Below, piece after piece: positions 20,792 through 57,752 of a stretch of DNA of 64,000 nt. Each line of letters starts with the position of its first letter. The stretch's first letter is position 1. The stretch is from Artemia franciscana. Lineage: Eukaryota > Arthropoda > Branchiopoda > Anostraca > Artemiidae. The stretch spans positions 38,618,867-38,682,866 of the forward strand of contig NC_088868.1 of NCBI RefSeq assembly GCF_032884065.1, given 5' to 3'. Made by a program: the position numbers and the translations under genes. Below the pieces are notes generated by a model, which made no database searches, was not told the origin of the DNA, and saw only the letters and a program-made list of their open reading frames with translations.

Positions 20792-20866
20792 TTAACCTCG
20801 CTTATAGGCCCTCCAGGCGTAGAATGTGCTTAAAGCATAGAGTAGGCCATTGATAAGTGCCAAAAC
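20792..20866 (-). CDS. Gene 1 exon 4, last coding exon (codons 148-171 and stop)
   Basis: A 75-nt exon after acceptor aaattttttag (ending 20867). It encodes helix 4 (VLALINGLLYALSTFYAW) and a short basic tail, then TAA at 20794-20792. It shares N, L, Y and T at equivalent positions (6, 8, 10, 14) with the last exon of gene 2. Confidence 0.88.
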   Translation of the reverse strand, partial: VLALINGLLYALSTFYAWRAYKRG

Positions 20867-23800
20867 CTAAAAAATTTACAATATTAGTAAAGTTGCAAGT
20901 TACAAGCAAAGAGAAAAGGAAGGTCAGTGCTCTATACTTTTGTTTGAAGAAGTGAGGTTTATTTTTGTTACGTGGTAAATTTTGTGACTATTTTGTGACT
21001 TCTGTTTGAGGAAGTGTGCTTTAGCTCAAATGGTTTATTTTTGTGACTTCTTTTCCCAAGCCAATCTAGTTATCCTTTAGCAGTAGCAGGAATAATTTAT
21101 TACAAAAAAAAAACAATCACAAACGTAATCAGTAGTTTGAGTACATCGGAGCACAAATTGCAGGATACCAAAATTGTTGCTAGGAGGGTGTGCTACTAAC
21201 AAGAAACTAATAACAAAAAAAATATCAAATATTTATTTCGACATTTATACAAATATAAATATCTTTATTTATGAAAACAACGCTACCTCTAATTTTGCAA
21301 CCAAGTTAACTGAGCTATTCGGGTTCATTAATGCTGGGTGAAAAATCTAGACGGACTAGAAGATGCTATTTCAGAAGAGAAAAATAATTCCGTCAAGTAA
21401 CTCGAACCTATTTAGATTAATATCCACAATTTTTACTACTTAATAAATATAAATTAATATTTAATGTTAAGCTTAATTAGACTTTAATTTTGTTGAACTT
21501 AAATTTAAAGTTAAATTTAAAATATAATTAAGGTTAATATTGAGTTATTATTATATTACTTAGATAATTAATTAACACATATTAAATTGATCTGTTAATT
21601 ATAGTAATAGATATTGATTCAGTTTAAAGAACAGAATTTTTAGTCACGGCACCTTTTGCTAGAATACTCCCTGTCTGATTCTGGTGGCAGATTATCTAAT
21701 TTATCTAAATTAATTGATAAATAACAATGAAAAGGAAACAAAGTTTACAGAGGAAAGGACGGAGTGCAAAAAAAAACAGTTTAAAAAAAACGACAATATT
21801 AACAAATGAAAGCCTAACACGAGACAATAAAACAAGAGTATTTTCAATATTTAGAAATAAATCAAATGCAAATTTTAAATGACGGACGATCCACAATTTT
21901 TCCCTTGTGTTCTTCAACTAGTTTTGAAACTGTTATTTCTGGATTGTTTATACTAAATTTGTTAATCAATTTTGGGTTGCGTGTCTATGGAGGTGTGTGG
22001 AGCAGATATTATGGGAGACGGAAGAAGATTGAAAGGACTTTTGCTTTATCAGTTTTACTGGAAATCTTCTAGAAAAAAGCAACATTATTGCGCATGCGGA
22101 CCAATGGTATGGGTTGCGCCGATCATTAAATGTTCTACGTTGCACAGGCATCTTTAATTCGATGCCTTCGGCCGGGAATCCAATGCATAGTTGGTGGCAG
22201 TCATCCGACGCTTAATTTTCCAGAAAGGCGTAACAAAAAAAATATAATGTACACAAAAAACATTTACAATAGCAAAAAACAACATTATTAATTAATAAAA
22301 ATCTAACACGAGACAATAAAACTAAAGTATTTTGAATATTTAGAAATAAATCAAATGCAAATTTTAAATGACGGACGATCCACAATTTTTCCCTTGTGTT
22401 TTTCAACTAGTTTTGAAACTGTTATTTCTGGATTGTTTATACTAAATTTGTTAATCAATCTTGGGTTGCGTGTCCATGGAGGTGTGTGGAGCAGATATTA
22501 TGGGAGACGGAAGAAGATTGAAAGGACTTTTGCTTTATCAGTTTTACTGGAAATTTTCTAGAAAAAAGCAACATTATTGCGCATGCGGACCAATGGTATG
22601 GGTTGCGCCGATCATTAAATGTTCTACGTTGCACAGGCATCTTTAATTCGATGCCTTCGGCCGGGAATCCAATGCATAGTTGGTGGCAGTCATCCGACGC
22701 TTAATTTTCCAGAAAGGCGTAACATAAAAAATATAATGTACACAAAAAACATTTACAATAGCAAAAAAACAACATTATTAATTAATAAAAATCTAACACG
22801 AGACAATAAAACTAAAGTATTTTGAATATTTAGAAATAAATGAATACAATTTTTAAATGATGAACGATTCACAATTTTACCTTTATGTTTTTCAATTAGT
22901 TTTAAAACTGTGATTTCTGGATTGTTTATACTTAATTTCTTAATCAATCTTTGGTTGCGTGTCCATTGAGGTATGTGGAGCAAATATTATGGGAGACGAA
23001 AGAAGATTGAAAGGACTTTTGCCTTATCAGCTTTAGTGGAAATCTTCCAAAAAAAAAAAAATATTATTTCGCTTGCTGACCAATGATATACGTTGCGTAG
23101 GCATCTTTGATTGGATACTTTCGGTCGGAAATCCAAGGCGTAGTTGGTGGCAATCATCCGACGCTTAATTTTCCAGAAAAGCATAACATAAAAAATATAT
23201 TGTAGCGCGTCGCAAAGACTGGTGGGGTAAAGGCAGCTGAAACAATGTTTCTTGGAAACAATTGAAGCATAGGAGGTAAGTACACGCTAAGAAATGTGAG
23301 CGAACAGAAGACTCTGACTGTGGCGAGCAGAGGTGCTGATACAGAGGTCTAAGCACGATATATCATCAATGGTCTTAACCACGAAGGTACAAAGGGATGA
23401 AACCTTTGACGATTATTCATCTGGGCAATCTAAAACAACAATTTCTCAAGATTTTGGATTGAATTCTAGGCCAAGATTATGTGATCATCAGAAAAAGAAA
23501 AAGATTTTTGAAATATACCCAGAAGTCAGTCTTAGGTAGATGATATCATTGACATATACGGTAAAGAATATGCTCATGGCATAAAGAATACAAATTTCTG
23601 AAACATAGTAAGAATTTTAATTATTATTTCACTTATTTGTGTATTTTGCCGTGTTTGATCCGTAAATACAGTCCAGGTAGAGGAAAAAGAAAAAAAGAAA
23701 AAGCAAGAAGCGTAATAACTTGGGGGTAATAATAGCGCAATAACCAAATACTTTGGGGGAGGGGTCATTCTCCAGAAGAAACGAACTACGAAACAGCAGA

Positions 23801-26800
23801 AAAAAAGTTCAAACTGGATTTAATTTTTACTCTGTTTTGGTATGATTTTCGGCACCTAAAATCAAAATCAGAAACTAGTCTTGAGCAGCCACATCTCAAA
23901 GTTACTAGGCTGCATGGCGAATGATGCTAAATTTTCTGTTAAAAAAAAAGAAGTTAAATTCACCATTACTTATCAACTTATTTCTTTATGTTTTGCCAGG
24001 TTTGGTCTGTGAAATTTTCTGTTTAATCTTCAGTGTTTGTTACAAATCTATTTTAAAAAAAAGTTTTTTTTAATGAAATAAAGAGTGAAATTTGAATTTA
24101 AAACGAACAAAAATTGTTACTTCACGGTCTATCTAACATATATAAATAAAACTTAACAGATAAACCAACTGGTGATATTTCCCTATGTTTGTAAGATTAT
24201 AAAAAAAAACTAGCGCTTTACTGAAAACACAAAACAATATGGGAGTTTTAATACAGTAAAAGTAAACGATTTAAGGAACTTTTTACGCTATTAGAATAAA
24301 GCATTTTAGGAACATTTCAAGATAATTTTGTAGACAATTTTACAGTGAAACCATGTTGAAAGTATTGGCACTATAGGCTTGCTTTAGAATTTGTGCTATA
24401 GACTGAAATTCTTTGTGGTATAGAGAGAATAACCGGATTTCCAGAGTTTATATTATGATTTACACGTTCTTTGTTTTGAGTAATACGCGTTTTTAATGTT
24501 TCTTACGCGTTCAATTACTGGTTTTAATACGCGTAGTAATACGCATTTTGAGTAATAAGCGCATTTTTCTTATAGTTTAAATTTGTATATTACTCTATAT
24601 CGGTATTATAACTGGTCAAACCAGCTATAATAAGCTTTTAAGATAATGTTAATAACACTGAAAGTTACTGATATCATAAGGGTTGCTTATTATCCCAACA
24701 TTGGAACCAACATTGGTTATGGTTTAACGTTTTAAATAAGTTTAATGCCATGCAGAGCAGGCTAGAGAATATGCACTCTTCTAATAATCAATTGCGCACT
24801 AAGAAATAATTTTATTTTATAAATAATTATTTTATAAATATTTATTTTATAAATAATATAAGAAATAATTTTAGAAATAATTAAGAAATAGTTATTAAGA
24901 AATAATTACTACGATTTTCATCGTTCATCGATTTCCTTGGCGTCCTTGAAGTAACTATTTTTTAAAGTAAAATAACTATTTTCCTTTCAGACATGACACC
25001 AAAAGTGTCGTTTCTAGTGATATTTGGAACATCCAGAGGGTAGAATTTATAGAAAGAACGTACATGAGAGCTATTAAAAATGGTATACGATGTTCTGGTA
25101 GCCCGCTAGTTCCACCCCTTGAGTAGTGGCCCAAAAAGTGCCATTTGGCAATTGCAGATGACGGAATTTATAAAAAAGCACGTACATATGGCAAGTAGCT
25201 TTTGAATAAGCCATTAAATATCGCTCTATGACGTTCTGGTAGCCCGCTAGTTCCACCCCTTGAGAAGTGGCCCCAAAAAGTGCCATTTGTAGTGCCATAT
25301 GGCAATTGCAGATGACGGAACTTATAAAACGTACATATGGCAAGTAGCTTTTGAATAAGCCATTAAATGTTGCTCTATGACGTTCTGGTAGCCCGCTAGC
25401 TCTGAGAAACAACAACGGGAGACAGATCCGTGCTACCCATTTAGCAGTGCTACCCATTTTGCAGTGCTACCCATGCAAAAAAGTAATTTTCCTTGATGTT
25501 CAAGGTGGGGGATTGTAATTTGCCTGTAAAAAGTTTTTGACTATGCTGAATGGCATACTTCTCATTTTGATATGACACCATTTTCGAAGGTTTTTTAACT
25601 CTTGGTTACTATAGGCTGTGGTTCAGTCTTAACTAGGTTGCAGCTGCTGCTGCAACCAGGATATTTCGGGTATTGAAACAAAACATTGAAACAAAAATCA
25701 TAAGAAAAACGTGGTTTAATGCAACAAATTTTTAACTAATTAAAAAAAAATAATGTATTTTCTTCGGTAATAATAAAATCTAAATACTTTGCCGAGGTTT
25801 CTTATCACCCACAAACAAAAATAACTTATGTTTCAGCAGAAGGAAAAATATTTCTAACCAAGATTCAATTTTGACTTTTGAGGAGTTTGGTTTTGGCCGC
25901 CCGAAATCAAAATTCAGAGCAAGTTCTGAGAAGCATTTGAAAGTTACTAGGCTCATCAGATATGATACAAAATTTCCTAGTAAAAAAGATTGGGTGGGAG
26001 AAAATCAGTTCAAAGTAATCACATCTGTTATTTAGAAAATAAATCATCGATTTATTTGATATTTGAAATAATACAAATTTATATACTAACATTTTTATTC
26101 CAGCTCAGATAATTTTATATATTTTTTTGACCGGCGTAAGGCATAATGTACTAAAGTTATTAAAATGTTTATTCTGCTCAATATATAATTATACTCTTAT
26201 TACTTTTCTCCCTATCTATTTTTTTTACAAAGCAAATCTTTCTTGTAACATTTATGTAACAGACGAATCTTCGAAAAAATTCTTTCGGATTTTCGAGGCT
26301 TCGAACTTTCTTTGGGATTCTCAGAGCTATTCCTAGTGAGATTTGATTTCAGTCATTGTGACAATAGGATACGAGCTTGATACCATTTTCACCATACCAT
26401 CAGTGTTAATCCTAAAGGTCTTGTATATCGAGTTAACGCTTCTAAAATAATTGCCAATTTGATAGCTATCCTCAGTAGAAGCATCATCAGGATAACACGT
26501 GTTCAATCACAAATTCATCCCTCTTAGATGCCAAGCTAATCTCTCTTTGAGGACAAGTTAGGAAACGCCTTTTGGCGCTTAACTCAAAAATATGAAGAAG
26601 CTGTCAGATATGACCTTTAGGGGCAACAGTTGCTACATGTCCAACAGGTTTAATTACGCTAAAACATTTAATTCTGCAAAAACTAACTGTTTTTTTTATA
26701 TTAAAAGAACACGGAAAGGTTTTATTGCACTTCGTGATTACTACTAATTAATGGCATGCATTTAATTTAAACGCATCTTCATTTTCTTAGTTCAAAAAAT

Positions 26801-29800
26801 TGTTTGTTAAGACTTAAATTTAGATTTCTGTTTATTTCTAAAAAACTTTTAGTGCTAGGTTCACCATACAAATACGTATTACAAATACAAATTTTGTGTA
26901 AATATACAAATAGGCTCACTTCTGCCGTATACAGGGTGGGGGCTAGGGGCTGCCCTTATCAGAAGCAAATTTGTGTTGTACTTTCCAAAGTTTTTTTCTA
27001 AAACATCACCAAGAACGTCAAAAAGCCGAAAAAGTTTTATTTTTACAAGAGGCAGGGAAAAAAGAGACAGATACGTCCTTTTTCTTAGGATATAAAATGC
27101 TTTAATTTGTTTTTGTTATTTCTTTTTAAGATAACAAATGATAAACGTATATTTAAGAAAAAATAACTAACAAATAAATATCAGCTAACACTTACTAATA
27201 AATAAATAATAGCAAATAATTAACGAAAATTCGTGGTAAATAGGTTTTGAGACTAAAAAAGACAACTAAATCATTTTACTTACAGCTGCTGCCATCTTCG
27301 TGTCTTTGTTATAAACTGTCCCTTTGTTATCGTTAATAAGAACTATGTAGGCGAGCCCACCAGCAGTGTATAAAAGGGTGATGGTGAAGTGATAAATGAC
27401 CTCCTAGAAATTAAAATTCCCTGTCAGCTGTGGGACCATAATGACTTGTAACTTAAAGAAACACTACACAGTATATTTGGTCCTATTATGTGTTTCAATG
27501 CAATTTACCAATTTTGAGTGTTGCTTTTGAAGTCGTACCCACGCAGCCCGAATTCCATTGCAGTTTCAATGCAACTCGAACTGCGGTTTCAATATATTTT
27601 GGCAATTTGAGTGATTTTTTTGAAGTCGTGCCCACGCAATCCAGATTAAAATCTTGTATATGTGTTCGTCTTAGCCTTTTATCCGCTGGGAGTAGGACTT
27701 CTATAAATGGGGATTTTCTCGTGATCACGACAATTCAGTCTTGAGTTCGAAATCAAGCGAAAAATTATTCTTAAAAGTATATTTCGAACATACATTATTG
27801 TTATTCAACATCTTAAACTTTTTTATTCAAAGCTTGGCATTTTTCACCAATGAATTTTGGGCTATTGCTAATTTTCTATTGGCGGCCCTAACTGCGAGTA
27901 TAAATCAATACAAATTATTAAATGAACTTGAAAGTAGTACCTCTTCTGTGTATATGCCTGATAATTAGACAATATTATCTGAATCAAGGGACTGTATCAA
28001 AAACTTACAATTAGACATAACTATTTCCTCTTTCATTTTGGCAAGAAAGAAAAGTTGAATTCATCCCAGATATACAGCTTATATATTTAAAATCTAATTC
28101 AAAATTAATTTTAAATTAATCAATTAAATAATTAATTAAGAATTAATCAGTATAATAAATTCATAAATTAAAAACATCAATTGCATAAATAAATTAAATT
28201 AGTGAATAATAAAATTAATTAATCAATTAAAATTAAGTAATTCAACTTTAAATTAAAAATTAAATGTCTGTATTCTTCTTTTTCCTCTGGTATGTTTATT
28301 GGAATTTCAAAATTTTTATGTCTATTATTAACGGAATATTACCATTTTGGCCAAACTCAGCCTTCTCTTCTTTTGGCCAAACTCAGCCTCTATTAACACA
28401 AAATCCTCCATGAGGACACAACCTATTCAGCCACAACAGTAATAATCTCCAAAGGCAACCATTATTACCAGATACTAAGGGAATACATGCGTAATTTAAT
28501 CTCATTCCTGCATTCCCGAGCCAGAGCCTTGTATTTGATGTTTGATGTTGATGTTGTTTTTTTTTGTTTTTTTTTGTCATAATAAAATCTTTTCTAATAA
28601 ATATGATGCAGGCTTAAAATAAAAAAAGAAAAAAAAAATCACAATTTTCTTATAGCAAAAATGCGCATAACGTGAAACATTTTAGGGATTTAAAGATGAT
28701 GTAAAAATTCGATACGTATTCGATTCAAAAGCAGTCGAATCAGGCAAATGCAATCCATCTGGAAACATTGAAGGGAACTAATGACTAAATGGAATACTCA
28801 CAAAAATAGTCTTGGCAATTATTGTCCCAGTTGCTATGGATACGAGACAGGATAGTGTTAGACAGAAAGTCGCTATCAAGGCAGTTGTGGCAATGAGAAG
28901 GAGATATAATTCAGTGACAAAAACTTGGTAGGCAGTATATCTTGAACTGGCTGTGGTCCATATGTAGTTACCCAGAATTCCAACAACAATGATGGATATT
29001 GCCTGAAATATAATATTTGAGTATGAAAAGCGGCTTAGAGACATGAGTTTGAAAAAAAATCTTGGAAGTTATTATTTTTTATTTCGGACATCTGTAACGG
29101 ACAGGCCGCAGGCCAGCGTTTTGATATTTATAATAAATGCAGGCCTCTAGTAATTTTTCAATGTTTCCTTTGCCAAAATTTTCGGCCAAAACTTGTTTTG
29201 CCAAAAAAAAATATCAATCAAGGCAATGGTAACAGCGAGAAGGTATGATAAGTTTCGAAAACCAGCTAAATTAGAAACAATGTGTTATCGCTTTAATTTC
29301 AATTCGAGTTAGGCGACTTTTCTTACTTAGGTCTCGTGTCAGCAACGACAAGATCCGTACCCAAACAGGCCAGATATTGCAACCGTTGTACGACAACGTA
29401 GATGGCAATATCTTGGACATATCCTCCGCATGCAAGATCACCGAATTCCAAAAATACTCCTCCACTGGCAACCGAAAATCACCCGTAGCCTAGGAAGACT
29501 AAAGAACACGTTCCTTAGTGGGAAGACATATACGCAGCGACTCATTTGAGGGAAGATTGGAGGATTCTCACCGACACCCTGTGTGCCTCCTGAGGCACTG
29601 GAGGAACTAAGGTTTAAGGTAAGGTTTGATCATAAAATAGTTTTCAGCTCGCTGAGGAGGAAAGATAAACAATTTTGATTTTGGGTAGGATTTGAGCCAT
29701 TTCGAGGATGGTTCAAACTACAGGAATATTTTTTTTTATTATTATTACCTCATTGGAATCAGCAGCACGCATTTTAAATCATTGTTGACAGTTCTTTAGA

Positions 29801-38800: not shown

Positions 38801-41502
38801 CCTTGGGGGACTAAGTCGTCCCCAAAGACATAGTTTTTATGTTTTTCGACTATGCTGAACAAAATGGCTATCTCAAAATTTTGATCCGTTGACTTTGGGA
38901 AAAAATGAGTTCCCCTCCAATTTCTTTGGTCACTTAAAAAGGGTACTAGAACTTTTAATTTCCGTTAGTATGAGCCCTCTAACGGCATTCTAGGACCAGT
39001 GGGTCGGTACGATCACCCCTTGGGAAAAGAAAAAAACAACAAATTAACACATACCAGTGATCGGTCTTCTGACAAAAAAAGTTCCACATTTTTGTAGATA
39101 GGAGTTTGAAACTTCTACAGTGGGGTTCTTTGATACGCTGAATGCGATAGTGTAATTTTCGTTAAGATTTCATGACTTTTGAGGGGTGTTTCCCCCTGTT
39201 TTCCAAAATAAGGCAAATTTTCTCAGGCTCGTATTTTTTGATGGGTAAGACTAAATTTGATATATTTAAAATCAGCATAAAAATCCGATTATTTTGATGT
39301 ATCTATTAGTGTCAAAATCCTTTTTTTAATACTTTCGTTCACTATTGAGCCGGGTCACTCCTTACTACAATTCGTCGCCACGAACTGTTTGACCAGCTAG
39401 TAACCTCATTTTCTACCTTAACCGCAGCATTGCTGTTCCCGTACGTAGCACTAATCACTTTAATGTGCTTATTTGGTATATCATCCAAGGATAGGACCTT
39501 CGCTAAAGCTCTTCTATCAGCTAAATCAAACGCTTGTTCATAATCTATAGAACTGAAGAGGTGTTTGGTGACTCTGGCACTTCTCAATTATTAATCTAAG
39601 GGTGAAAATTTGGTCGACGTATCTTCTACCTATCCTAAAACCACAATTTTCTTCTCTTTTTAGTTTATCTATAGCATCTCTAAGTCTAAAAAGTATCATC
39701 ATACTAAGTAATTTGTTTCCAAGAGAAACCAGGCCAACACCTCTATCATTACCACACTCATTCTTATCATTTTCTTTATGAAGGGGTTTAATTAGAGTTT
39801 TCCTTACATCGTTAGGTATTCACCTTTTTCAAAAATCATATTCACAATATTCCACAGTTCCAAAAATTTAGAGGTTCCTCATACTTCCCCATTGTTGTTC
39901 GACTGTAACCCCCCGAGTGCTTGTATTATGATGTGGGACAAGCTTCCAGAATTTACTCGGAGTTACCTCCGTTCGTTTCGGATGTCATGGATTCCGTGCC
40001 TCTGGAATGGTTTTGGACGTTTTCTAGGGGGGGGTTTTTTTATAACTTTTTTTTCTTTTCAGTAACTTTAGTTTCATGGTTACGCTACTCCATTGCTTAG
40101 TATGTGATTTGGGGGATTTTTGAGGTGGAAGATAGGTTTTTTTTTCATGCGTATTTTATTTTTTTTTTATTTTTTTTAGTTAAACAGTTGGTGGTAACGA
40201 ACTGTAAGCAAGTAGCGACCCGGCTCAATAGTAACCGAAACTCTAAAAAACAGAACTTTGATACCAATTGGTAAATCAAAAGAATCGGATTCTTATGCTG
40301 ATTTTAAATACATAAGATTCATCAGTTTTAGTCTTACCCATCAAAAGCTACGAGCCTGAGGAAATTTGCCTGATTTTCGAAAAAAGGAAGAAACATCCTC
40401 TAAAAGTCATAGAATCTTAATGAAAATCACATCATCAGATTCAGCCTATCAGAGAACCCTGTTGTAGAGGTTTCACCCTCCTATCTGCAAACCTCCTCCC
40501 AAGCTCATATTTCCCAAAGTCTCCGGATCAAAATTTTGAGATAGCCAATTTGTCCAGAATAGTCAAAAAATCTATTATCTAATGTTTTTGAGGACGATTT
40601 AATCCCCCACAGTCACCCACTGTCACAAGGGCTGTAAGTTAGGAACTTTGCCCATTGTTTACATATGGCATTCGTTATTGGGAAGTATACATACATTTTC
40701 ATTGGAAATTTTTTTGTGTGTGGGGGGGGGGCTCGGGAAGCAGGATGCGTGGGTGGGTCTCTCCATAGAGGAATTTTTCTTAGGGGAAGACAATTTTTCA
40801 TAAATGTGGTGACAGATATACCAACATTATTTAAAAACGGTCGTTTTCGACCATTTAAAAACGGTCGTTTTTGATTTCATGAATGTAATGTTTTCCTATT
40901 AAGCACAAAAATGCAACAAAAATGATAATCATTTTTACAATAAGCTCTTAAGAAAGCAAAATTCCAAAGTTCAAGTTTTTGGGACGCTGGGAAAAAAAAT
41001 AATTGCAATGCACAAGAATATAAAAAAAAAACTGTAGGTTTCGCTTTCAAGCTAGTACAGTTTGATGATTTTAGGTATGCTTTTAATACTTCAATATTAA
41101 CGAGAATTACAAAAGAAAAATGTCTAAATTCAAGCATTGGGAAGGCCAAAAATAGCAAAAGCAAAAACAGCAATAACCGAAAAACGCCAAAAATCAAAAT
41201 ATGAAAAAAAAAACCAGCTCTATGTTTATTTTAAGGCTGAAAGGGCTCTGAAACGTCAGTACATTAAAAATGTACGATATTCAGAAGAATTACACAAACA
41301 GAACTGTAAAATTTGAGATTTGGGAAGCCAAATTTAACAAAAATAACTTTAGTCTAGAAAAAAGGCTCTAGATTTTACTTACAAGCTGGAGGACTTTAAG
41401 AATTCCAGGGATGGTTTTAAAATATCCAATATTTAGAAGAATGGCTGATGTAGTGTGAACGCTAGTTGTGGTTCTTGTGACGGTCACCTGATGCGCTGAC
41501 AT
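20792..41502 (-). CDS. Gene 1: MARVEL-domain four-helix membrane protein (CMTM-like), complete, four exons
   Basis: Spliced CDS: join of 41502-41383, 29002-28802, 27403-27284 and 20866-20792, 171 codons plus TAA. Every intron is GT-AG and phase 0. The start ATG (41502-41500) opens a Thr/Val-rich cytoplasmic tail (VTVTRTTT near residues 6-13) followed by a NIGYFKTIPGILKVLQL segment, the typical entry of arthropod MARVEL proteins. Predicted helices lie at about residues 32-52, 67-95, 108-130 and 145-166, and the protein ends in a short basic tail (YKRG). Length and the four-helix plan fit the CKLF-like MARVEL transmembrane (CMTM)/plasmolipin-type family, whose members sit in membranes and act in vesicle traffic, membrane apposition or receptor turnover; the precise role here cannot be read. 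Introns are 12.4, 1.4 and 6.4 kb and full of repeats. A second gene of the same family lies upstream in the same orientation. Exon order and family are near certain; the substrate or partner is unknown. Confidence 0.9.
21790..23205 (+). repeat. Three-unit tandem array, 489-bp period
   Basis: Units start near 21790, 22279 and 22769 with AACACGAGACAATAAAAC. The first two units are almost identical (for example GCATGCGGACCAATGGTATG in both); the third is diverged and shorter. Each unit contains a GC-richer stretch with TTCGGCCGGGAATCCAATGC. Open frames of 60-70 codons recur with the period and differ in each unit, so they are not conserved genes. Lies in intron 3 of gene 1. Confidence 0.92.
23206..23560. 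other. Unassigned sequence, higher complexity
   Basis: Right after the 489-bp array the sequence changes to a mixed-composition stretch (TGTAGCGCGTCGCAAAGACTG). No coding frame or element could be named; it may be an unrecognised retroelement end. Confidence 0.3.
23808..23950 (+). repeat. Direct repeat, copy 1
   Basis: AAAATCAAAATCAGAAACTAG, CAAAGTTACTAGGCT and AAATTTTCTGTTAAAAAA match, with changes, 25855-25995 (GAAATCAAAATTCAGAGCAAG, AAAGTTACTAGGCT, AAATTTCCTAGTAAAAAA). Confidence 0.6.
24485..24534. repeat. Cluster of three ACGCGT palindromes
   Basis: ACGCGT occurs at 24485, 24505 and 24529, with a near-copy TACGCATTTTGAGTAATAAGCGCA just after. In AT-rich DNA this CpG-containing hexamer is rare. 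It may be a degenerate short tandem repeat. Confidence 0.6.
24990..25460 (+). repeat. Tandem array, about 145-bp period
   Basis: GACGTTCTGGTAGCCCGCTAG-type blocks occur at 25089, 25228 and 25376. Between them lie AAAAAGTGCCATTTG, GCAGATGACGGAA and TACATATGGCAAGTAGC. A diverged earlier unit is visible from about 24990. A short CTACCCATTT/GCAGTG repeat follows at 25430-25475. The 127-codon minus frame is a product of the repeat. Confidence 0.9.
25855..25995 (+). repeat. Direct repeat, copy 2
   Basis: Partner of 23808-23950, about 2.05 kb downstream in the same orientation. Confidence 0.6.
25996..27283. other. Intron 3 sequence, no second gene seen
   Basis: AT-rich. Around 26400-26640 a mixed-composition stretch reads partly open on the plus strand but I could not tie it to a family. 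Confidence 0.4.
27284..27403 (-). CDS. Gene 1 exon 3 (codons 108-147)
   Basis: A 120-nt phase-0 exon between acceptor tttctag (ending 27404) and donor gtaagt (27283-27278). It encodes helix 3, starting EVIYHFTITLLY, and the polar loop to helix 4, ending MAAA. It is the same length and phase as gene 2 exon 3 at 57633-57752, with 10 of 40 positions identical without a gap (E1, Y4, T9, L10, Y12, G15, V21, Y31, A38, A39). Confidence 0.9.
28802..29002 (-). CDS. Gene 1 exon 2 (codons 41-107)
   Basis: A 201-nt phase-0 exon between acceptor atatttcag (ending at 29003) and donor gtgagt (28801-28796). It codes for the rest of helix 1 (AISIIVVGIL), a short polar loop (WTTASSRYTAYQ) and helix 2 (about ELYLLLIATTALIATF), ending AKTIF. 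The upstream in-frame Met at 29044 belongs to the intron and is not the start, because the splice acceptor and exon 1 supply the N-terminus. Confidence 0.9.
29275..29625 (+). mobile_element. LINE C-terminal fragment (GHILRM type)
   Basis: The plus strand reads RWQYLGHILRMQDHRIPKIL in one frame, followed by HWQPK and, near 29580, a CVPPEALEEL-like end; this is the typical C-terminus of an endonuclease/reverse transcriptase LINE. Sequence differs clearly from LINE A, so it is another family or an old copy. Lies in intron 1 of gene 1. Confidence 0.65.
29626..30108. other. No recognisable gene
   Basis: AT-rich intron sequence; nothing supported. Confidence 0.5.
30109..30594 (+). mobile_element. 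SINE family S1, dimeric copy
   Basis: A tRNA-like head (A-box region TAGTTAAGTGGTTGCC near 30115; B-box GGTTCGATTC near 30168) is followed by two tandem core units, about 30236-30403 and 30405-30573. Each contains AAATGGGT, TGGAGAAATCTG, GGTGTGCGA, CCATTGCACTTCCTGGC and GGAGATCAGC-like blocks. The tail is (CTTTAC)n. Open frames across it are not genes. Confidence 0.85.
30690..30965 (+). repeat. R1 terminal hairpin fragment
   Basis: Contains the R1 end features, including ACTCCGTGTACAA, CTCCTCTTCAATCCCTCACTCTTTACG and, after about 100 bp, GAGCGAGGGTCCGAGG and TTTCTGTTCGTTTTAAGTTTG, which face each other as inverted arms. Confidence 0.6.
30966..32039. other. No recognisable gene
   Basis: AT-rich intron sequence. 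The 74-codon frame at 31048-31272 shows no family features. Confidence 0.5.
32040..33000 (+). repeat. Degenerate tandem array with GAGTCTGAA blocks, about 145-bp period
   Basis: A block like TTGAGTCTGAATGAGTTCAGTGAGTCA recurs at about 32058, 32205, 32361, 32512, 32650, 32800 and 32932, with intervals of 132-156 bp. Between blocks lie TTATTTTGAAGTTCAGTNNG-like sequences. Copies are strongly diverged; a weak echo lies at 33340. Lies in intron 1 of gene 1. Confidence 0.75.
33001..34489. other. No recognisable gene
   Basis: AT-rich intron sequence; the two 82-codon minus frames (32971-33219, 33564-33812) show no family features. A 19-bp phrase, GAGTCACAACCCAGC, is repeated directly at 34251 and 34268. 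Confidence 0.45.
34490..34596 (+). mobile_element. LINE A 3' end fragment
   Basis: TTTGAATAGATTGGAATAGAGG, GGAGCGTGCGTAATTGTGT and the tail AATAAGTTGTTACTAGTAGTAGTAG match the LINE A 3' end. Confidence 0.7.
35650..36045 (+). mobile_element. LINE B-type reverse transcriptase fragment
   Basis: The plus frame holds FKGGSRNDPASCRPISLLSM followed by FSK, the RT block around RPISLLS. A shifted continuation reads SFVNYLRSGLDCGLIPFALF, up to the point where the first palm aspartate would come. The fragment is cut at 36045 by a LINE A 3' end in the opposite orientation. Not enough to name the clade. Confidence 0.7.
36046..36335 (-). mobile_element. LINE A 3' end and C-terminal fragment
   Basis: The minus strand reads RWLGHALRMMNDRLSKIVL and ends through AGCTGTGTTGGTCTCAGGCGG to AGTAAAAGTAGTAG at 36046. 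It is the 3' portion of a copy whose more 5' portions lie at 37021-37435 and 39391-39895. Confidence 0.75.
36372..37020 (-). repeat. R1 copy, minus strand
   Basis: Contains the complement of R1 landmarks: CATAGTTGAGAGGCCCAATAACTATG, GGGCACCTAGGCCCC and the TTAAAAGTTCTACTGCCC block, in reverse order. Sits between two parts of a LINE A copy. Confidence 0.7.
37021..37435 (-). pseudogene. LINE A reverse transcriptase middle part
   Basis: Minus strand reads VDFVLRSPAKALGKHG, a degenerate catalytic box (expected YADD, here with substitutions near 37350), then INELLEVL, IGFKINVKETKPLRLRISDG and FTYLGSIISKDG. This is the part of the palm domain that the copy at 2406-3680 has lost. Confidence 0.75.
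37436..38510 (-). repeat. R1 copy, minus strand
   Basis: Contains GGTCATTTAAAAAG-type and CAATACCTTGCTCTTTAC hairpin blocks and the complement of the R1 head (CCGGGTCGCTCCTTACTAC at 38468). Adjacent to a second R1 copy in the same orientation. Confidence 0.75.
38511..39390 (-). repeat. R1 copy, minus strand, head-to-tail with the previous one
   Basis: Starts with the CCTGAATCACAAAGGTCGCAG hairpin end and finishes with the head GAGCCGGGTCACTCCTTACTACAATTCGT (complement). Two R1 copies in a row suggest that R1 can be tandemly arranged. Confidence 0.75.
39391..39895 (-). pseudogene. LINE A reverse transcriptase 5' part
   Basis: Minus strand reads VNPLHKEND-like and GLVSLGNKLLSMMILFRLRD blocks, then IDYEQAFDLADRRALAKVLS and IKVISATYGNSNAAVKVENE. 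The frame is broken at the inserted R1 (39390). With 37021-37435 and 36046-36335 it forms one dismembered LINE A copy. Confidence 0.75.
39896..40184. other. No recognisable gene
   Basis: Mixed sequence ending in T-rich runs near 40040-40180. Confidence 0.5.
40185..40870 (+). repeat. R1 copy, plus strand, with internal deletion
   Basis: Starts with GGTAACGAACTGTAAGCAAGTAGCGACCCGGCTCAATAG and runs to the GGGGAAGACAATTTTTCAT block; the stretch after TATCTGCAAA is shortened compared with 62505-64000. A palindrome, AAAACGGTCGTTTTCGACC, follows at 40834 and is repeated at 40858. Confidence 0.75.
40871..41382. other. Intron 1 of gene 1, no further feature
   Basis: AT-rich; the 106-codon minus frame at 40877-41197 is poly-A/T-driven and shows no family features. 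Confidence 0.45.
41383..41502 (-). CDS. Gene 1 exon 1 (codons 1-40)
   Basis: Begins at ATG 41502-41500 and ends in CAG CTT followed by the donor gtaagt (rc of 41377-41382). It encodes the Thr-rich N-terminal tail and the start of helix 1 (IPGILKVLQL). A T-rich acceptor-like site, ttattgttatag, ends at 41528, 26 nt upstream of the ATG, so the true exon may run from 41527 with a further non-coding first exon elsewhere (inference). A (TA)n tract lies about 70-110 nt upstream of the ATG. Confidence 0.88.
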
Positions 41503-41566
41503 CCTCGAAAATCTATTGAATCTTTTCCTATAACAATAAAATAAAATAGTGGCAGTTCTTTTCCTA

Positions 41567-41616: not shown

Positions 41617-41621
41617 AAAAA

Positions 41622-42180
<559 letters not shown>

Positions 42181-43732: not shown

Positions 43733-43842
43733 AAAGCTTGCATTAGATTGAAAAAGCTGATTTGTAAAGCTAATTGGATTTAAGAAGAGAAAAGGGACAT
43801 TCACCGGTGAATGTCGACATTAACCAGATTTCAGACATTCAT

Positions 43843-46830: not shown

Positions 46831-47142
46831 CCAGTACACTCTCGAGAATTTGGATCTATAAAATCAGACAATAAAAGGTTTATTGTTGTCTGTATACGCA
46901 GACAATTAGCTTCGGCTCACTGGAAAACTACATTGCAGCTATGTTTTAACTAATGTTTAGTTAGCTACATTTTAGTTTAGTTTAAATTTTGCATATAACC
47001 CCTCTATACTAAACCCCCCACCCCAACTCCCTTAATACGCAAAAATGCAGCCGAAATTATTTATACCCAATCTATATCCCAAGCGTCTCAGTTGTTTAAA
47101 CCCCATACTTGTAGATCCGAATTCTCGAGTGTGTACTGGTTA
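46831..47142. mobile_element. Small inverted-repeat element, about 310 bp
   Basis: Left end CCAGTACACTCTCGAGAATTTGGATCTA and right end TAGATCCGAATTCTCGAGTGTGTACTGG are inverted with two or three differences over 28 bp. A short palindrome, GTCTGTATACGCAGAC, lies inside near 46889. Flanking TTAG and TTAA are compatible with a short target duplication. Confidence 0.65.
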
Positions 47143-49319: not shown

Positions 49320-49640
49320 TTAAATAAAAAAATTGCCTTTTTTAGATGGAAGTAAAGAGCAACTAAAATGAACAGAAATTTCAGGGGGATCCTCCCTCTT
49401 TAACCCAGCCCTCTCCCCCCACCACAACCACCACTCGTTACTATAAAGTTTTTTAGGCCTTATACTTGTGTTTCAGCAGTCAGCCTTAAGGGAATGAGAC
49501 AAAAAATCAAAATTTAGCGTAAAAAGCGAGGGGTTGAGGAGGTTGTAGTCCCCCTCACACACGGAACAATTTTTGTTCGCTCCGAGTTTTTGTGTTGATT
49601 CCTACTTTTAGTTGAAAATAAGCGTTTTTTTTACATGACT
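49320..49640 (+). repeat. R1 hairpin end fragment
   Basis: GGAAGTAAAGAGCAACTAAAATGAACAGAAATT and, after 150 bp, GTTCGCTCCGAGTTTTTGTGTTGATTCCTACTTTTAGTTGAAAA are the two facing arms of the R1 palindromic end. Confidence 0.6.
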
Positions 49641-50129
49641 TCTGATTGTTTATCAAATCCTTTACACTTCCAACCAAAACATGACAGACTCACAGCCCCT
49701 TAATCCTCGATCTCTGCTGTTAAATCGCTGATATCAATAATTAAAAATTGATTGGTTGTGTCTCACTTTTTCTTTTTTTCTGCTTCAAAATAAGTGCTTG
49801 ATTGCAATTAAAGTTTTGGACAAAATTTGAGTTTTTGGTCAAAATTTTTGGATGAACAGCATTTTTAAAAATAAGTTTTAAATAATGTTTTTATAAAGGA
49901 TTTTTACGGGTGGACAGAGAAGGCTATTATTGTTCATAAGAATTGAAATTCTGCGTGGCTTTTGATCTTCTACGTGGCTAGGGCTATTGCGGCCTCTGCA
50001 ATAGAGTTCTCTGAACAGTAAATACATTCTTATGTTTTATAATTCCTAAAGTTATAGCATCGGGTATAATTAAACACTTTATTCGCCGCTGGTCTTTTAT
50101 CTTTCATCGGTGTTTTAGATGACTGTTGA

Positions 50130-50530
50130 TTCTTCTTTTGAAAGAGTCTACAGAGAAGCTTTTAAGATAGCTTCCAAAGGAAGATCATTCCAGATTGAGG
50201 TGCAACTTCGGATGAAGCTATTCCTCAAATACTGTGTCCTGGGCTTACCAGCTTCCAAACAATGAGGAGCTGCGTGTCTTTGTATCTGCTGTGTTGATTG
50301 GAAAATTAGAAGTACAATATGTGAAGACTCTAAAGAAGGAGGTGCATTTATATAATTGCAGAAAAAACCCACTGGCACTATATCAAGCCTTTCACTCTCA
50401 TCCCGGAAAGAGTTGTAGGGCTCTTCGACCCGCCTTATTTCAGATCATTTGGATTGGTGCCAATAGCGTTTTTGGAGCACCAGCATACAGTGAACATCCC
50501 TACTCGGTAATGGGTCAGATGACAGACCTG
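50130..50530 (-). mobile_element. LINE B/C-type C-terminal fragment
   Basis: Minus strand keeps NSFIRSCTSIWNDLPLEAIL, typical of the extreme C-terminus of non-LTR reverse transcriptases, and further upstream a degenerate YAGAPKTLL and NKAGRRALQLFPG stretch that matches the preceding WG..LL..QNRA block. The plus-strand frame over the same bases (50234-50533) is a shadow. Confidence 0.55.
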
Positions 50531-51996
50531 TAAAGCGAGATGATCGAGCTGATCACCCTGCCGTTCTTGAATGCGAAGGGTGATCTCCAGATTTTTATAC
50601 AGGAGGTTCTCCCTCGATCGAGGAACAAAGGTTTTTCCTCACCCTCATTATCGGAATTTTCTGAGTCACTAGAATTTAATAATTAGTCACTTTCTTCCTC
50701 TGCACAATTAGTTCCTACTATGTCGACAATTTTAGAATCCCAGTGGAACTACAACGGAGTAAAAATTTACTTATTTTGTATTGATATTAATATAACTTCT
50801 GTTGCATTAACTGCGCCAGTGTAGAGATGTGTTAAGGTTTTTATTTGTACCAAACAAAGCTCCTAAAATATACTTTTCTGAAAAAATGTACCTGACACCA
50901 AAACTTTCAGCGCGGGCTGTACTTCGTGCAACTACGCGCATCTCCATTCAAACAATACTCTATCAGGGTGATGAGATCATTCCACCCTGATAGAGTCTCA
51001 CGGTGATTTTCAAAATAGGATAGAAGAGTCACGATATTTTGGACCACAAGTCTTATAAAGATGGCTCCGGAACCACAAGTTTCAGAAACCGGAACGCAAG
51101 TCTCAGATTTGAAACATGATTTTCGCGGAATTTTATTTTTTGGGGATTTTTCCTTCTTTAATCTACCAGTTGTTTATATTTTTTCAAAATGTGCTGACTT
51201 TGTAGATAAATTGAAAGAGTAGCTTTCCATATAAAGTCAATTTTTGCAATTAGTTTAGCCATTTGGAGCATGGGGGGGCTATAAATATATAGTCATAGCC
51301 ATCTACAACTTACAAATGTCTATTTCCTTCAAAGCCGGAGAACATCTAAAGAGAAAAATACATCGTCAACGTGAGATATATTTCCTCAACCTTTTTCTCT
51401 TTTTTTGTATTATCTTTACGAAAAAGAACCCTTAATTAATTCTTTCCTATAGCCTCGTGCAATTGCGTAAGGCCCAAAGAAGCATATTGTTTAGGTCTAA
51501 TACTTTTTGATCAGACCAACATAACCAGGATTTCGGAAATCTGAGCTACTTCGACCTAATCAGCTTGATTTTATTGGTCACTGGATATATGTAAAGAAAA
51601 CATTGACGGTTAATCAAAATGTAAAGACAGCTAGTCATAAGCCAAAAATTATTTTTTCACTTCAATGATAGCTGAAACAGGGGTAAGCCTGAACTTCTTT
51701 TTGTTTCGCTGTGACTACATATCACTTATGTTTTGACAATATTCAGAGAAGGTAGGTGTATGTCTATAGGTCACGTAACACTGGTTAATGAGATGCTGGC
51801 AACAGATGACGAGTTGAAACTTTCCAACTCTACTCGGTTCATTTGAACAGAATATTTCAATTTATTGAACATGGTGAAACCCAAAACTACAAAAAATTAT
51901 ATAAGTATAGACAGAGCTATTATCTCAGAAATGAAATAACTTTTCCTTAACTTGCATCTTCGTCTTATCAGTTTTTACCTTGAAATTCCCTCTGTA
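50531..51996. other. No recognisable gene
   Basis: Mixed composition. A short palindrome-like repeat ACTCTATCAGGGTG / CACCCTGATAGAGT lies at 50967-50997. Nothing coding is supported. Confidence 0.45.
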
Positions 51997-52067
51997 TAGT
52001 AATAGTAATGAGTAATGGTAATAGTAATAGTAATAGTAATAGGTATAGTAATAGTAATGGTATAGTA
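51997..52067 (+). repeat. (TAATAG)n minisatellite
   Basis: TAATAG units with TAATGG and GGTATAG variants. Confidence 0.9.
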
Positions 52068-52424
52068 ATTGACACTCTGTAGGCTATTTATGGGTATTTA
52101 CCTTCAGAATAATCAAAGTATCCTTTTAATGAAGAGTTGGGAGTCACATGCCTATTTATTCTCGAGTCATAAATGGAAAATCGAATTGAAATAAAACTTT
52201 AAAGTCACCATAAGATTCAGGTCTGGATTTTTTATCAAAAAATAATAAATCAATGAAAGTGGACACTTTTTTTGAGTGTGTGATACAAACTATAGATTTG
52301 CCTATGTTGGTGCATTGTTGGTACCTTTATTTGCCTATGTTGCCTATATGGTTGTTAAGGTGACAGAATTACTTTCTCTAAATCTTACTGATTTAAATCG
52401 ACCTGAGAATCAAATATTATGCAA

Positions 52425-52760
52425 TCAAATAAAAAAAGTAATTTTTCAGATGGAGGAAAGAGTAACAAAAATTAACAAAAATGTTTCCGTATTTGAAGGG
52501 GGCGCCTCCCTATTTGACCCCCCCCCCCACTAGTTACTCTTGAAAAGCTTCTTTTTCAATTTCAACAGCCCTTGTGTTTCAGCTGTCGTTCTTAAAGTAT
52601 TGGGACACAAATTCCGAATTTATCGTAAAAAGGGAGGGATTGAGGAGGGGGCAGCCACCTCTCATATACAGAACAATTTCTGTCCGTTCCATGTTTTATG
52701 TCGATCTTTACATTCATTTGAACAATAAACTTGTTTTTATATGAATTTTAGTTGTGTTAC
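52425..52760 (+). repeat. R1 hairpin end fragment
   Basis: Contains AGGAAAGAGTAACAAAAATTAACAAAAATG, a CCTCCCTATTTGACCCC block and the facing arm TTTCTGTCCGTTCCATGTTTTATGTCG, the same layout as 49320-49640. The 85-codon frame at 52276-52533 runs into it and is not considered a gene. Confidence 0.6.
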
Positions 52761-52944
52761 TTTTGTGGAAGAATAGAGAATGGCAGTATAAGGTTTCCTT
52801 ATGATAAAATTCCACAATGGTCAAACGTGGAAATTCCCTGCTTTTTCCTATGAGGTGAAGCTTCTCCCCTATATTATCATCACTTCTTTTACTGGTAGAA
52901 GTATATCTAAACAACAAAGACTAGCAAGTAGTAAGTAAGTATGA

Positions 52945-53240
52945 CGGCACTAGACCCTTAAGGTCCAAACCAGCGTCGCTGATCTTCGTTTCGTGGTCCT
53001 TCAGCCAAGAAGCGCAATGGGATGCTGGGGGGCTAGCCATCCTGTGCTTTCGCACACCTTTCCTAATTACCTTCTCCAGATTTCTCCAGGTATCCGTTTA
53101 AAGCTGGGTTAACTCTGACTGAGCTTACAGAGTCACGCCACTGACCCCCGTCCCAAACCAAATAACTGGCTATGCCAGGTATCGAACCCACACCCTTTGA
53201 AAAAAGAATTCTGAAACCAGCGTGCCAGCCAGAAATCAAA
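52945..53240 (-). mobile_element. SINE family S1, diverged minus-strand copy
   Basis: B-box GGGTTCGATACC (complement of 53178-53189) and the S1 core with TTGCGCTTC-like, GGTGTGCGAAAGC and CGCTGATC-like blocks. The A-box region is eroded. The 86-codon minus frame is within the SINE. Confidence 0.75.
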
Positions 53241-53579
53241 TACAGAATTTCCTGTGCCATGAGGATGATCAGAAATTCTTTGCGTACAGAGACAGAGATT
53301 CCAAATTTTGTTGTTTGTTCCAAAATTGATTAATAATGACATTTTCACTTTAGAAACAAATTTCTAATAGTAGTATAGCTGTCGCAAGTACTACTACGGC
53401 TTATTCGAATACCGGACGTTGAAGTTTTATTTCCGAGAAAGACCCTTCTTTTAATTTTATCTTCCTGAAGTGTCAATAGGTTTTTTCGCGTGGCCTATGG
53501 CGCTTATAATCATTTTTATGTTTCTTTCTGTTTCATTTCGTTTTAGTATCGTTTGTTCTCCTCACTGTTTTTCCTTTTG
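53241..53579. other. No recognisable gene
   Basis: AT-rich spacer. Confidence 0.5.
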
Positions 53580-53910
53580 GTAGCTACAAAACTATTCTAC
53601 TCTTTTTTTACACAATTTGAACTTAACCCTCTCCCGTAAAAAAAAAAAAAACTCTCTCCTCTTAAAATAAAATTATGCACAAGGACCTTTCCCTAAAACG
53701 CCATCACCGTCTGCATGCAAACCCTACCAGTGTTGGTAGCTAAGAATTAAACCAAAACTATACAACTCTTTTTTACGCTTTTTAAACTTAACCCTCTCCT
53801 GCTCAAAAATTCTCTCCTCTTAAAATAAACCTATGCGTATTGGTCTTTCCGTAAAGCGCCATCACCGTCTATCTGTAAACCTACAAGTATTGTTAGCAAA
53901 AACTACTTTA
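53580..53910 (+). repeat. Two-unit tandem duplication, about 168-bp period
   Basis: AACTTAACCCTCTCC, CTCTCTCCTCTTAAAATAAA and CGCCATCACCGTCT occur in both units, about 168 bp apart, with moderate divergence. Confidence 0.85.
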
Positions 53911-53980
53911 AACTGGATCTATATACATCGTAAACAGGAGCGCACATAAGATAGGCTAACTATTCCTTCATACTGCTCCT

Positions 53981-54510
53981 GATCCTTCACGACTTTCTCT
54001 TTTATTTTTGTGCACTCTTTTTGTTGTAATTTTCCAATTTTTGATCCCCCCCCCCAAAAAAAAAAAAAAATATATACATTGGTGTCTGTTATTGGCTATA
54101 TGGGATATCGAGTTGGCATAGTTCAAAATCGAGCTGGGTATCAAAATTTCGTGCCTCTTAGATGCTTCACTTTTTGTCAATCACATTCTTAATCCATCTT
54201 ATCATTTGATACGGTGAAAACATTTGTCACATTTAAAATTCCAGTCGTGATCCTTCACGACTTTCTCTTTTATTTTTGTGCACTCTTTTTGTTGTAATTT
54301 TCCAATTTTTGATCCCCCCCCCCCCAAAAAAAAAATAAATATATACATTGGTGTCTGTTATTGGCTATATGGGATATCGAGTTGGCATAGTTCAAAATCG
54401 AGCTGGATATCAAAATTTCGTGCCTCTTAGATGCTTCACTTTTTGTCAATCACATTCTTAATCCATCTTATCATTTGATACGGTGAAAACATTTGTCACA
54501 TTTAAAATTG
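53981..54510 (+). repeat. Two-unit recent tandem duplication, 268-bp period
   Basis: GATCCTTCACGACTTTCTC starts at 53981 and at 54249. The units differ mainly in the length of their poly-C/poly-A tract and a few bases (GGGTATC versus GGATATC), so the duplication is young. It lies just downstream of gene 2 on the minus strand. Confidence 0.93.
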
Positions 54511-54540
54511 CACTGTCTTAGAACTTCTCAAGATTAGGAT

Positions 54541-54546
54541 TTATTA
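54541..54546 (-). terminator. Polyadenylation signal of gene 2
   Basis: AATAAA on the minus strand, 92 nt after the stop codon of gene 2, at almost the same distance as in gene 1 (95 nt). Confidence 0.5.
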
Positions 54547-54637
54547 TAAAAATAAAACTAGAACGGGGCACACGGAACATTATTAAATATAACAGCAGTT
54601 AAACTTTCGAAGCACAAACAATTGTAATAATTATGAA

Positions 54638-54703
54638 TTAAAGCTCGAGGAATATTAAAAGCGTTTCCGCGCCATAGGCCAATGTGTTGAAGAAACCAAA
54701 ACT
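54638..54703 (-). CDS. Gene 2 exon 4, last coding exon (21 codons and stop)
   Basis: Begins after acceptor ttcttttcag (ending 54704) and runs through helix 4 to TAA at 54640-54638. Residues F-N-T-L-A-Y recall the helix-4 motif of MARVEL proteins and align with I-N-G-L-L-Y of gene 1. Confidence 0.8.
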   Translation of the reverse strand, partial: SFGFFNTLAYGAETLLIFLEL

Positions 54704-57700
54704 CTGAAAAGAAAACAAACGATTAAAAACTGTTAAAAATCTGATTATAAGATTAGTAATAACAATAGTCCCTATTGGTGTAAGCGTGTTTGAAAAATTA
54801 CAAATCTCAACTTCAAGTCCGACAAATCAATCTTTAAGGCCAAGCCGAAGTAAGCATTTTACTCTCTAGTTAATTCTTTTTCTGAGGTGGCAATTCGGTC
54901 AAAGACAAAGGTGTCAGTTTTCTTCGTCGCTTCAACTAAAAAAAACATGAGAAGGTTCAACTTAAGGGGTTTCTCACTAAAATTATGATTATTGCATTGC
55001 TATTCTTCATAATGGCAAGTAAATAGTAAGATTTATTTGCAAAAAAAAACTACTATTCGATGAGGAAATTAGAGAAAATATTATTCGAGGATAAATTTTT
55101 TCGGTGGGAGGTTACAACTAACTAATACTTCACTGAATCACTCAAGAACAATCCGTTGGTCTAATTTATGCATTATCACGCGCTCCGAATACAGCTGCAT
55201 CTATTCTTTTGAGGGAAATTTTGGACTTCGGAACACAAATATGTAAAGAATTTGAAGGGACTGCAGCCAGGAAGTATATATTATAGAAATAAGTTTCTGA
55301 TGGATGAGTAGAAAAATTTTTGCTCTATTTTTTGATACTCCACAACAACAGAATGCAAACTGTAGCAATCTAGAATGGAAACCCGAAACAGGTTTTGTAA
55401 TCATTCTGGAATTATAAAAAAAAATAATTGTCGGCTTTAAGATTTGATTAGATCAAAATATTCACCAGACTTTTTTTTATATCTGTTAAAATGAAACCGC
55501 CGAAATCACTAATTCAGGAACGTCAGGGAAAGTCTAAATGTTTAACATGGGAGGCATAGGAAGGTTCCTTGAGAGCCCGTCCTGCCTTAAGTCCGACCGT
55601 CTTCCAATGAAGACAGCTTAGCAGAGGTTGCAGCAAAATGTCGACAACCTTTCACAATTTCAATCGACTTTTATAAGCTGAAATTGTCATTTCAAAGGTT
55701 CAATTGTAGTAGCATACGCTGAACATGGTCGTTAAAATATCATGAAGGCAATGTGGTGCAAGAAGGTGCAATATGGCTACCTTTCCTCTAAAAAATGTGT
55801 TGGTGGGAAAGGTTTATATTCAATGAAAAAAATAAATATAAATTAATGTTAACTTATGCAGTTCAGCGTAATTGGTGGAAATTGGTGAATCTGGATCCAT
55901 AAAAATCAAACTAAAAATAACAGGCTTAACTGGACTCCGAGTCAGGGTTGCCACGTTAAAAAACGGTGCTAAATACTCTTTTAATATGAGAACTAAATAG
56001 GCTTACATTGAAAACAAAAGGAGAAAAAGCGTGACTTTGACAGCAGAGCACCGTATCTGGATACTAATTTTTTTTTCTGGTTGCAGTTAGACATGAATTC
56101 GAACATTTGAGACGTTATAGACTCGAAATGAAATCGAAGTGCATAAACAAAACAACTCCCCTCAATTAAAATCTCCCTTCTTGTGTTTTTTATTCTTGAA
56201 GGGAAGGATCGCCAAGGCAATGTATACGCAATTACATTTTTATCCTCTTGAGATAATCTACCTCAGCAGTTTTAAAATATCACCTTTAAAACATAATAAT
56301 TATAATTTTAAGAGCTTTTATTTTAAATCCCACTGGATCCGGTGACGTTGGGGGGAGTTGGAGGAGGAAACCTAAAATCTTGGAAAACACTTAGAGTGGA
56401 GGGATCGGGATGAAACTTGGTGGGAAAAATAGGCACCATTCCTAAATAGGTGACTGACATAACTGGAACGTATCCGCTCTCGTTGAGGGAGTTGGGGGGG
56501 GGGGGTTAATTCTGAAAATTAGAAAAAATGCAGTATTTTTAACTTACTAAGGAGTGATCGGATCTTAATGAAACTTCATATTTAGAAGAACCTTGTAACT
56601 CAAATCTCTTATTTTAAATCTCAACCGGATCTATTGTCATTGAGGGGAGTTGGGGGGCGGAAATCTTAGGAAACGCTTAGAATGGACAGATTAGGATGGC
56701 ACTTGGTGGGAAGAATAATCATAGGTCCAAGATACGTGACTGACATAACCGAACCGGATCCGCTCTCTTTGGGGGAGTTGGGGGGGCTATTATTTTGCTT
56801 CAGAGCTATTACTTTGAATCCCAACCAGATCCGGTGACATTGGGGGTAATTGGAGGGGGAAACCGAAAATCTTGGAAAACGTGAAATTTGAGGTATCTTT
56901 ATCTTACGAATGGGTGACCAGATCTTAATGAAACTTAATATATAGAAAGATGTTATGTCTTAGATGCTCCATTTTCAATTCAAATTGGATCCGGGGATAT
57001 AGGGGGTTGGAGGGGGAAAACAGAAATCTTGGAAACCGGATATCTTGGAAAAAACTTAGAGTGGAGAGATCGGGATGAAACCAGATGGGAAGAATAAGCA
57101 CAAGTTCTAGATACTTGATTGGTATAATTGGTACGAAACCGCTCTCTTTGGGGAGTTGGGGGGTGGGGGAATTCCAGTGCTTTGGCGAGTTCGGTGCTTT
57201 TGGACGTACTAGGACGATGAAAATTGGTAGGCGTGTCAGGGACCTGCACAAATTGACTTGATAACAGTCATTTTCCTGATTCGGCCATCTTGGGGGCTGA
57301 AGGGAGAGAAAAAAATTGAAAAAAAAATGAGGTATTTTCCACTTACGTATGGGTGATCGGATCTTAATGAACTTTGATATGTAGAAGGACCTCGTGTCTC
57401 AGAGCTCTTATTTTAAATACCGACCGGCATTAAGCCTCTGATTTTCCTTTTAAATCATTCTGTTGATCCTTAGAATTTCGCTAGAGCTCATACTATATGA
57501 GCTCTTGGCTCTTCTGACATCATCACAAGTGCCATATGAGCTCTTGTTTCTAACGTTGTCCGTCTGTTAAATTTATGGTGATGAATTTAGCAATTTTGTC
57601 TCTTTTATTAGCTTTTGGATAATGTCACTTACCCCTGCGGCGAGATTCGAACTGGCAAAATACTTCTGGGCATCAGCTTTGCTCCAAACCACCAACTGAG

Positions 57701-57752
57701 TAATCATCCCAGTTATATAGAACAACGTTGCGAAAAGGACGTAATAGAATTC
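54638..57752 (-). CDS. Gene 2: tandem paralogue of the MARVEL-domain protein, 3' part only
   Basis: Two exons are visible: 57752-57633 and 54703-54638, joined across a 2.93-kb GT-AG intron of phase 0. Together they give 61 residues plus TAA: helix 3 (FYYVLFATLFYITGMITQL), a polar loop, then helix 4 (SFGFFNTLAYGAETLLIF) and a very short tail (LEL). Exon length, phase and residue pattern match gene 1, so this is a tandem duplicate in the same orientation, with its last exon 13.1 kb upstream of gene 1's start codon. Exons 1 and 2 were not found in the 6.2 kb to the window edge; intron 1 of gene 1 is 12.4 kb, so they may simply lie outside. The function is as uncertain as that of gene 1: a MARVEL-family membrane protein. 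Confidence 0.82.
54704..56329. other. Intron of gene 2, no further gene seen
   Basis: AT-rich. The 67- and 75-codon minus frames (55201-55404, 55993-56220) show no splice sites or family features. A CAGGGTTGCCA end-like phrase lies at 55943. Confidence 0.45.
56330..57560 (+). repeat. G-rich tandemly arranged repeat (R3)
   Basis: Units carry GGATCCGGTGACNTTGGGGG, GGAGTTGGGGG, AACTTGGTGGGAAAAATA and GATCTTAATGAAACTT blocks; the last recurs near 56569, 56934 and 57361. The final part has an inverted phrase, CATATGAGCTCTTG (57495-57545). Two overlapping minus frames (56925-57251) are products of the repeat. Lies in the intron of gene 2. Confidence 0.75.
57633..57752 (-). CDS. Gene 2 exon 3 (40 codons)
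   Basis: Phase-0 exon between acceptor tttttaag (ending 57753) and donor gtaagt (57632-57627). It codes for helix 3 and the loop ending SSNLAAG. The 3' half of the exon happens to contain GTTCGAATC, a perfect RNA polymerase III B box, preceded by a CAGTTGG motif like an A box. The coding match to gene 1 exon 3 and the intact splice sites favour an exon over a tRNA-derived SINE. Confidence 0.83.

Follow-up and report, generated by a model that had tools for sequence, protein, structure and literature searches.

The human MAL gene consists of four exons encoding 31, 56, 42 and 24 amino acids, with every splice falling between codons, and a review describes its product as gathering raft-like membrane in sorting and transport (PMC8145151). 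A phylogeny of the MARVEL superfamily places a few of its groups in invertebrates (PMC10792014). The window, that is, the whole stretch of Artemia franciscana DNA that was analysed, comprises 64,000 nt (contig C6, 38618867-38682866) of a genome of 1.27 Gb, and positions below are counted on its scale. Two adjacent genes on its minus strand very probably each encode a four-pass MARVEL protein from four phase-0 exons spliced GT-AG, both gene models being predicted. As in MAL, both models have four coding exons, all introns in phase 0 and four membrane passes, and the last coding exon, in gene 1 only, likewise encodes 24 amino acids (PMC8145151). The predicted products are of 169-171 aa against 153 aa for MAL, and unlike the 31/56/42 aa of MAL, exons 1-3 encode 40/67/40 aa in gene 1 and 54/54/40 aa in gene 2 (PMC8145151). 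This likeness to MAL is one of exon plan, membrane passes and size. The single MARVEL domain is a feature in common with PLLP, CMTM8 and the CMTM (CKLF) family.

The coding exons of gene 1 measure 120, 201, 120 and 75 nt, all in phase 0, and give a product of 171 aa followed by a stop. Exon 1 (41502-41383, minus strand; 40 aa) begins with the ATG at 41502, encodes the N-tail and the start of TM1, and is followed by the donor GTAAGT. Exon 2 (29002-28802, minus strand; 67 aa) encodes the end of TM1, loop 1, TM2 and the inner loop, exon 3 (27403-27284, minus strand; 40 aa) TM3 and loop 2, and exon 4 (20866-20792, minus strand; 24 aa and stop) TM4 and the C-tail. An AG precedes exons 2-4 and a GT follows exons 1-3, while exon 4 closes with the stop, about 100 nt past which there is an AATAAA (20691..20696, minus strand). 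The length of the genes is due to their long, repeat-bearing introns; intron 1 of gene 1 measures 12,380 nt. Strict polypyrimidine and donor limits in the splice scan missed true exons, which relaxed limits recovered. Directly upstream of the ATG there is an acceptor-like stretch, TTGTTATAG (41503..41529, minus strand), with its AG at 41529-41528 and then 25 nt to the ATG; its counterpart in the gene 1 copies on contig C13 is TTGTTACAG. This AG may mark the junction with a 5' UTR exon further upstream or with a trans-spliced leader.

The missing exons of gene 2 were searched for in a region of 224 kb, obtained by adding neighbouring DNA to the window. Exon 1 (81135-80974 on the window scale, beyond the window, minus strand) was found by tblastn with gene 1 (E 0.012 over 224 kb for the part that matched), and exon 2 (66743-66582, also beyond the window, minus strand) was picked by hydropathy and frame, a choice that preceded the profile confirmation of the whole protein; its donor is weak (CTG at the exon end, then GTTAAG). 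Exon 3 (57752-57633, minus strand; 120 nt, 40 aa) encodes TM3 and loop 2. Exon 4 (54703-54638, minus strand; 66 nt, 21 aa and stop) encodes TM4 and lies within the MARVEL match (44-164); it was in the hydropathy list, yet outside the best 25 by similarity to exon 4 of gene 1. An AATAAA (54540..54545, minus strand) follows about 90 nt past the stop. The complete predicted product has 169 aa, with 54, 54, 40 and 21 aa from the successive exons and all splices between codons.

Against the Pfam MARVEL profile (PF01284; cut-off 32.8 bits), the gene 1 product scores 47.5 bits (E 2.5e-12; match 28-162) and the gene 2 product 49.7 bits (E 5.1e-13). Exon 1 of gene 1 contributes only its end to the match, and removal of exon 2 lowers the score to 23.2 bits. 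Ten decoy splicings were built, each joining a true exon 1 to further hydrophobic segments bounded by AG and GT and to a terminal segment, drawn from the same 224 kb; none matched MARVEL at a reporting limit of E 10, in a test where the HMMER filters remove most matches above E 0.1. By hydropathy only, both proteins have four transmembrane helices: gene 2 presents four peaks, and gene 1 the four expected with a further one at the inner loop. In the PDB, sequence searches found no MARVEL relative; a MARVEL family search of the genome gave 0 matches and also 0 in 14 control genomes, so absence from this genome is not implied. The first-pass annotation had called both genes MARVEL genes with exons hidden in long repeat-bearing introns, had assembled gene 1 from four phase-0 exons, and had assigned to gene 2 the last two exons, its first two lying past 64000; all of these readings are borne out, and the refuting outcome it had named, a spliced protein lacking any MARVEL match, did not occur. 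As judged from their sequences, both genes are of MAL/PLLP/CMTM type, a label that covers all three subfamilies, and they are ordinary genes, a previously undescribed pair of a known kind. By the topology of the family, both protein ends would be cytosolic and loops 1 and 2 outside, and the proteins would have a putative role in sorting or trafficking, by bringing ordered membrane together.

Several repeats and other features accompany the two genes. A repeat (41619..41932, minus strand) lies between two (AT)n tracts a short way upstream of the first exon of gene 1, and by its motifs looks like a tRNA-derived SINE; ARAGORN and Rfam gave no matches within the window. The last intron of gene 1 contains a 489-nt unit repeated 2.7 times (21784-23097), which is partly found also near two of the exon 4 copies described below (L032 and L035), and a 269-nt unit is present in two copies with 98% matches (53980-54509) just past the stop and AATAAA of gene 2. 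Fragments of reverse transcriptase-like ORFs were found at 2016-3330, 13151-13558 and 39345-39819, presumably resembling RTE-type LINEs. Outside the window, at -35484 on its scale and on the plus strand (L012), there is an amino-acid permease exon (AA_permease_2, 35.3 bits, cut-off 27), probably of the LAT/SLC7 type; weaker permease candidates at -44107 and -2031 scored 11.2 and 16.1 bits, under the cut-off of 27.

Searching the genome with gene 1 yielded 23 best matches, including four to gene 1 itself, 15 treated as copies and four that were dropped (L033, L036, L037 and L039, with E 0.49 to 8.2). Among the matches listed, copies are located on C13 at about 13.06-13.18 Mb and at 49.6 Mb, at two places on C9 and on C6 at 28.16 Mb, with further copies on the small contigs C120, C185, C233, C4739 and C5415, which are perhaps alleles. 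Relatives of exon 1 (L027, L029, L030, L031), copies of exon 3 (L028, L034, L040, L041) and copies of exon 4 (L032, L035, L038) were all found. The interval 13.058-13.190 Mb of C13 holds L022, L025, L028, L029, L031, L035 and L040; other copies are L023 and L041 on C4739, L021 and L024 on C9, and L018 on C120. On the plus strand of C13, three exons of a copy were found, giving 141 aa with a MARVEL score of 36.7 bits and 53% identity to gene 1. A minus-strand copy on C13 spans about 48 kb and has counterparts to each of the four exons, arranged as in gene 1, and its introns resemble those of gene 1. Some copies are broken: the exon 2 copy L025 (C13A) has stops in the loop, the exon 3 copy L034 (C233) has a stop and the exon 1 copy L030 (C185) lacks an ATG. 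These three are decayed or allelic pieces.

Gene 1 and its copies have introns in common as well as exons, in places over 1 kb, and the contrast between the two is the sole surprising part of the locus. In 15 of 16 comparisons of gene 1 with a copy, made as single local alignments through each exon with simple repeats masked and not independent because all share gene 1, the exon is more diverged than the introns that touch it. In single local alignments, pooled exons differ by 0.19-0.28 against 0.056-0.208 for pooled intron bins; the exception is exon 2 of the C120 copy, with 0.133 in the exon and 0.136 in the intron. For exon 1, the alignments with L029, L030 and L031 cover only 52 of 120 sites. 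MHC genes have introns homogenised relative to their exons, and the present genes are like them, by analogy, in having exons more diverged than the adjoining introns.

Synonymous sites take part in this divergence. Among 18 whole-exon pairs, in which dS and dN include loops that barely align, dS exceeds intron divergence in all 18 and dN in 16, and dN exceeds intron divergence in 17. For the gap-free TM2 segment, gene 1 and three C13-type copies give a dS of 0.78-1.28 and a dN of 0.13-0.14; the introns beside it differ by 0.12-0.14 within 300 nt and by 0.13-0.18 within the 120 nt closest to the exon. Of 30 segment pairs, 24 have a dS above the divergence of 300 nt of intron, and the other six involve C120, C9a or exon 3; unrelated ends in the alignments inflate some of the segment intron values, namely those for C9a and for exon 3 in C13B and C4739 (0.100, 0.163 and 0.158 in single local alignments). 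Against the nearest intron, p was below 0.05 in 15 of the 30 pairs (TM2 9/15, exon 1 5/6, exon 3 0/6, exon 4 1/3), by Fisher p-values that ignore shared ancestry and multiple tests. The second exon 2 copy on C9 (L024, about 1 kb from L021) was used in the comparison of loops and left out of the segment and local-alignment tests.

Here it is tentatively proposed, with far less confidence than attaches to the gene models, that the gene 1 lineage may consist of long-separated paralogues, in which conversion has made the introns alike again and selection has kept the exons distinct. The exons, most of all where they encode the two outer loops, have diverged more than the introns, and on this reading they would be old and the introns around them younger and homogenised. 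It is somewhat doubtful that the introns near the exons only look young, being held by selection for splicing or regulation while the exons evolve at a normal rate, a reading that fits the intron sites nearest the exons, since similarity is highest in the first 40 nt after them (0.056 differences per site). Against it, the similarity spans 1 kb with many indels, and the apparently recent, decayed copy on C120 is the one in which exon and intron are equally diverged, so that its introns show no slowing. Intron constraint or a local mutation effect may also lie behind the contrast.

Protein and DNA comparisons both place the differences largely in the loops. Each segment of the gene 1 protein was compared with two or three copies, of which two are near-identical: of the aligned residues, 5-7 of 18-21 are the same in the outer loops, 11 of 13 in the inner loop, 12-19 of 21 in TM2 and TM3 and 4-14 of 16-24 in the N-tail. 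At the DNA level, loop 1 of gene 1 is 47-55% identical to five of six copies, with indels, and 88% identical to that of C120. Diversifying selection on the outer loops would produce such a pattern, and the excess of dN over intron divergence in nearly all whole-exon pairs agrees with it. As the entire explanation of exon divergence above that of introns, it is nevertheless unlikely: dS exceeds dN in most of those pairs and intron divergence in every one, and a TM2 segment, aligned without gaps, whose dS lies far above the divergence of its flanking introns is not what selection on amino acids would be expected to give. Because dS exceeds both dN and intron divergence, simple positive selection is insufficient, and positive selection as sole cause was dropped, since synonymous sites have diverged as well. 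In a pair of near-copies, C13B and C4739, exon 3 differs at about 12 of 132 aligned sites against 28 of 1180 in the flanking introns, with exon lengths of 132 and 138 nt, 6 nt apart; exon 2 of the same pair is without amino-acid excess (dN 0.021, intron 0.022). Gene 1 could belong to a recognition-like MARVEL family (self/non-self, pathogen or gamete), its loops diversified and its introns kept alike by conversion, a reading that would be decidedly speculative and is given little probability here.

The first-pass annotation had further proposed a tandem duplication of a CMTM/MARVEL gene, of which the adjacency, the common strand and the homology hold, so that tandem duplication is compatible with the data and partly supported. 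Both the name CMTM, in preference to MAL or PLLP, and the duplication nevertheless claim more than the evidence bears out. The stop of gene 2 and the ATG of gene 1 are 13.1 kb apart. The alignment score of the two proteins, which are 22-25% identical, was reached by none of 1000 shuffles, the signal coming from exons 1 and 3. In ungapped register, 10 of 40 residues of exon 3 are identical, and exons 2 and 4 align no better than shuffles (868/1000 and 480/1000 reach the score). As to the two genes being mutual closest relatives, gene 1 has nearer copies on C13, C9 and C120. Since gene 2 is a more distant relative of gene 1 than such copies are, any tandem event would be old. A recent local duplication of one CMTM gene is thus very unlikely to have given the pair, for all that the same strand, the distance of 13.1 kb, the shared exon plan and the homology would agree with it: the mutual identity is far below the 53% between gene 1 and the partial C13 copy, exon 2 of gene 1 shares 84% identity with the C120 piece, and in 224 kb the closest match to any exon of gene 1, gene 1 itself apart, is exon 1 of gene 2 (E 0.012), followed by one with E 0.052. 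The idea that gene 1 is a false assembly, its long first intron joining the rest to an exon of another gene or of a dead copy, is scarcely credible: it could draw on the broken copies C13A (exon 2), C233 (exon 3) and C185 (exon 1), but the minus-strand copy of C13 keeps the four-exon order together with intron similarity to gene 1, and the joined protein yields a MARVEL match, though exon 1 adds only its end.

For the animal, these gene models indicate that a MAL-like exon plan is present, in genes of a type that plain ORF scans cannot show. For the family, if the contrast between exons and introns holds, the gene 1 lineage would be a clear case in which to ask why MARVEL loops stay different and introns alike.
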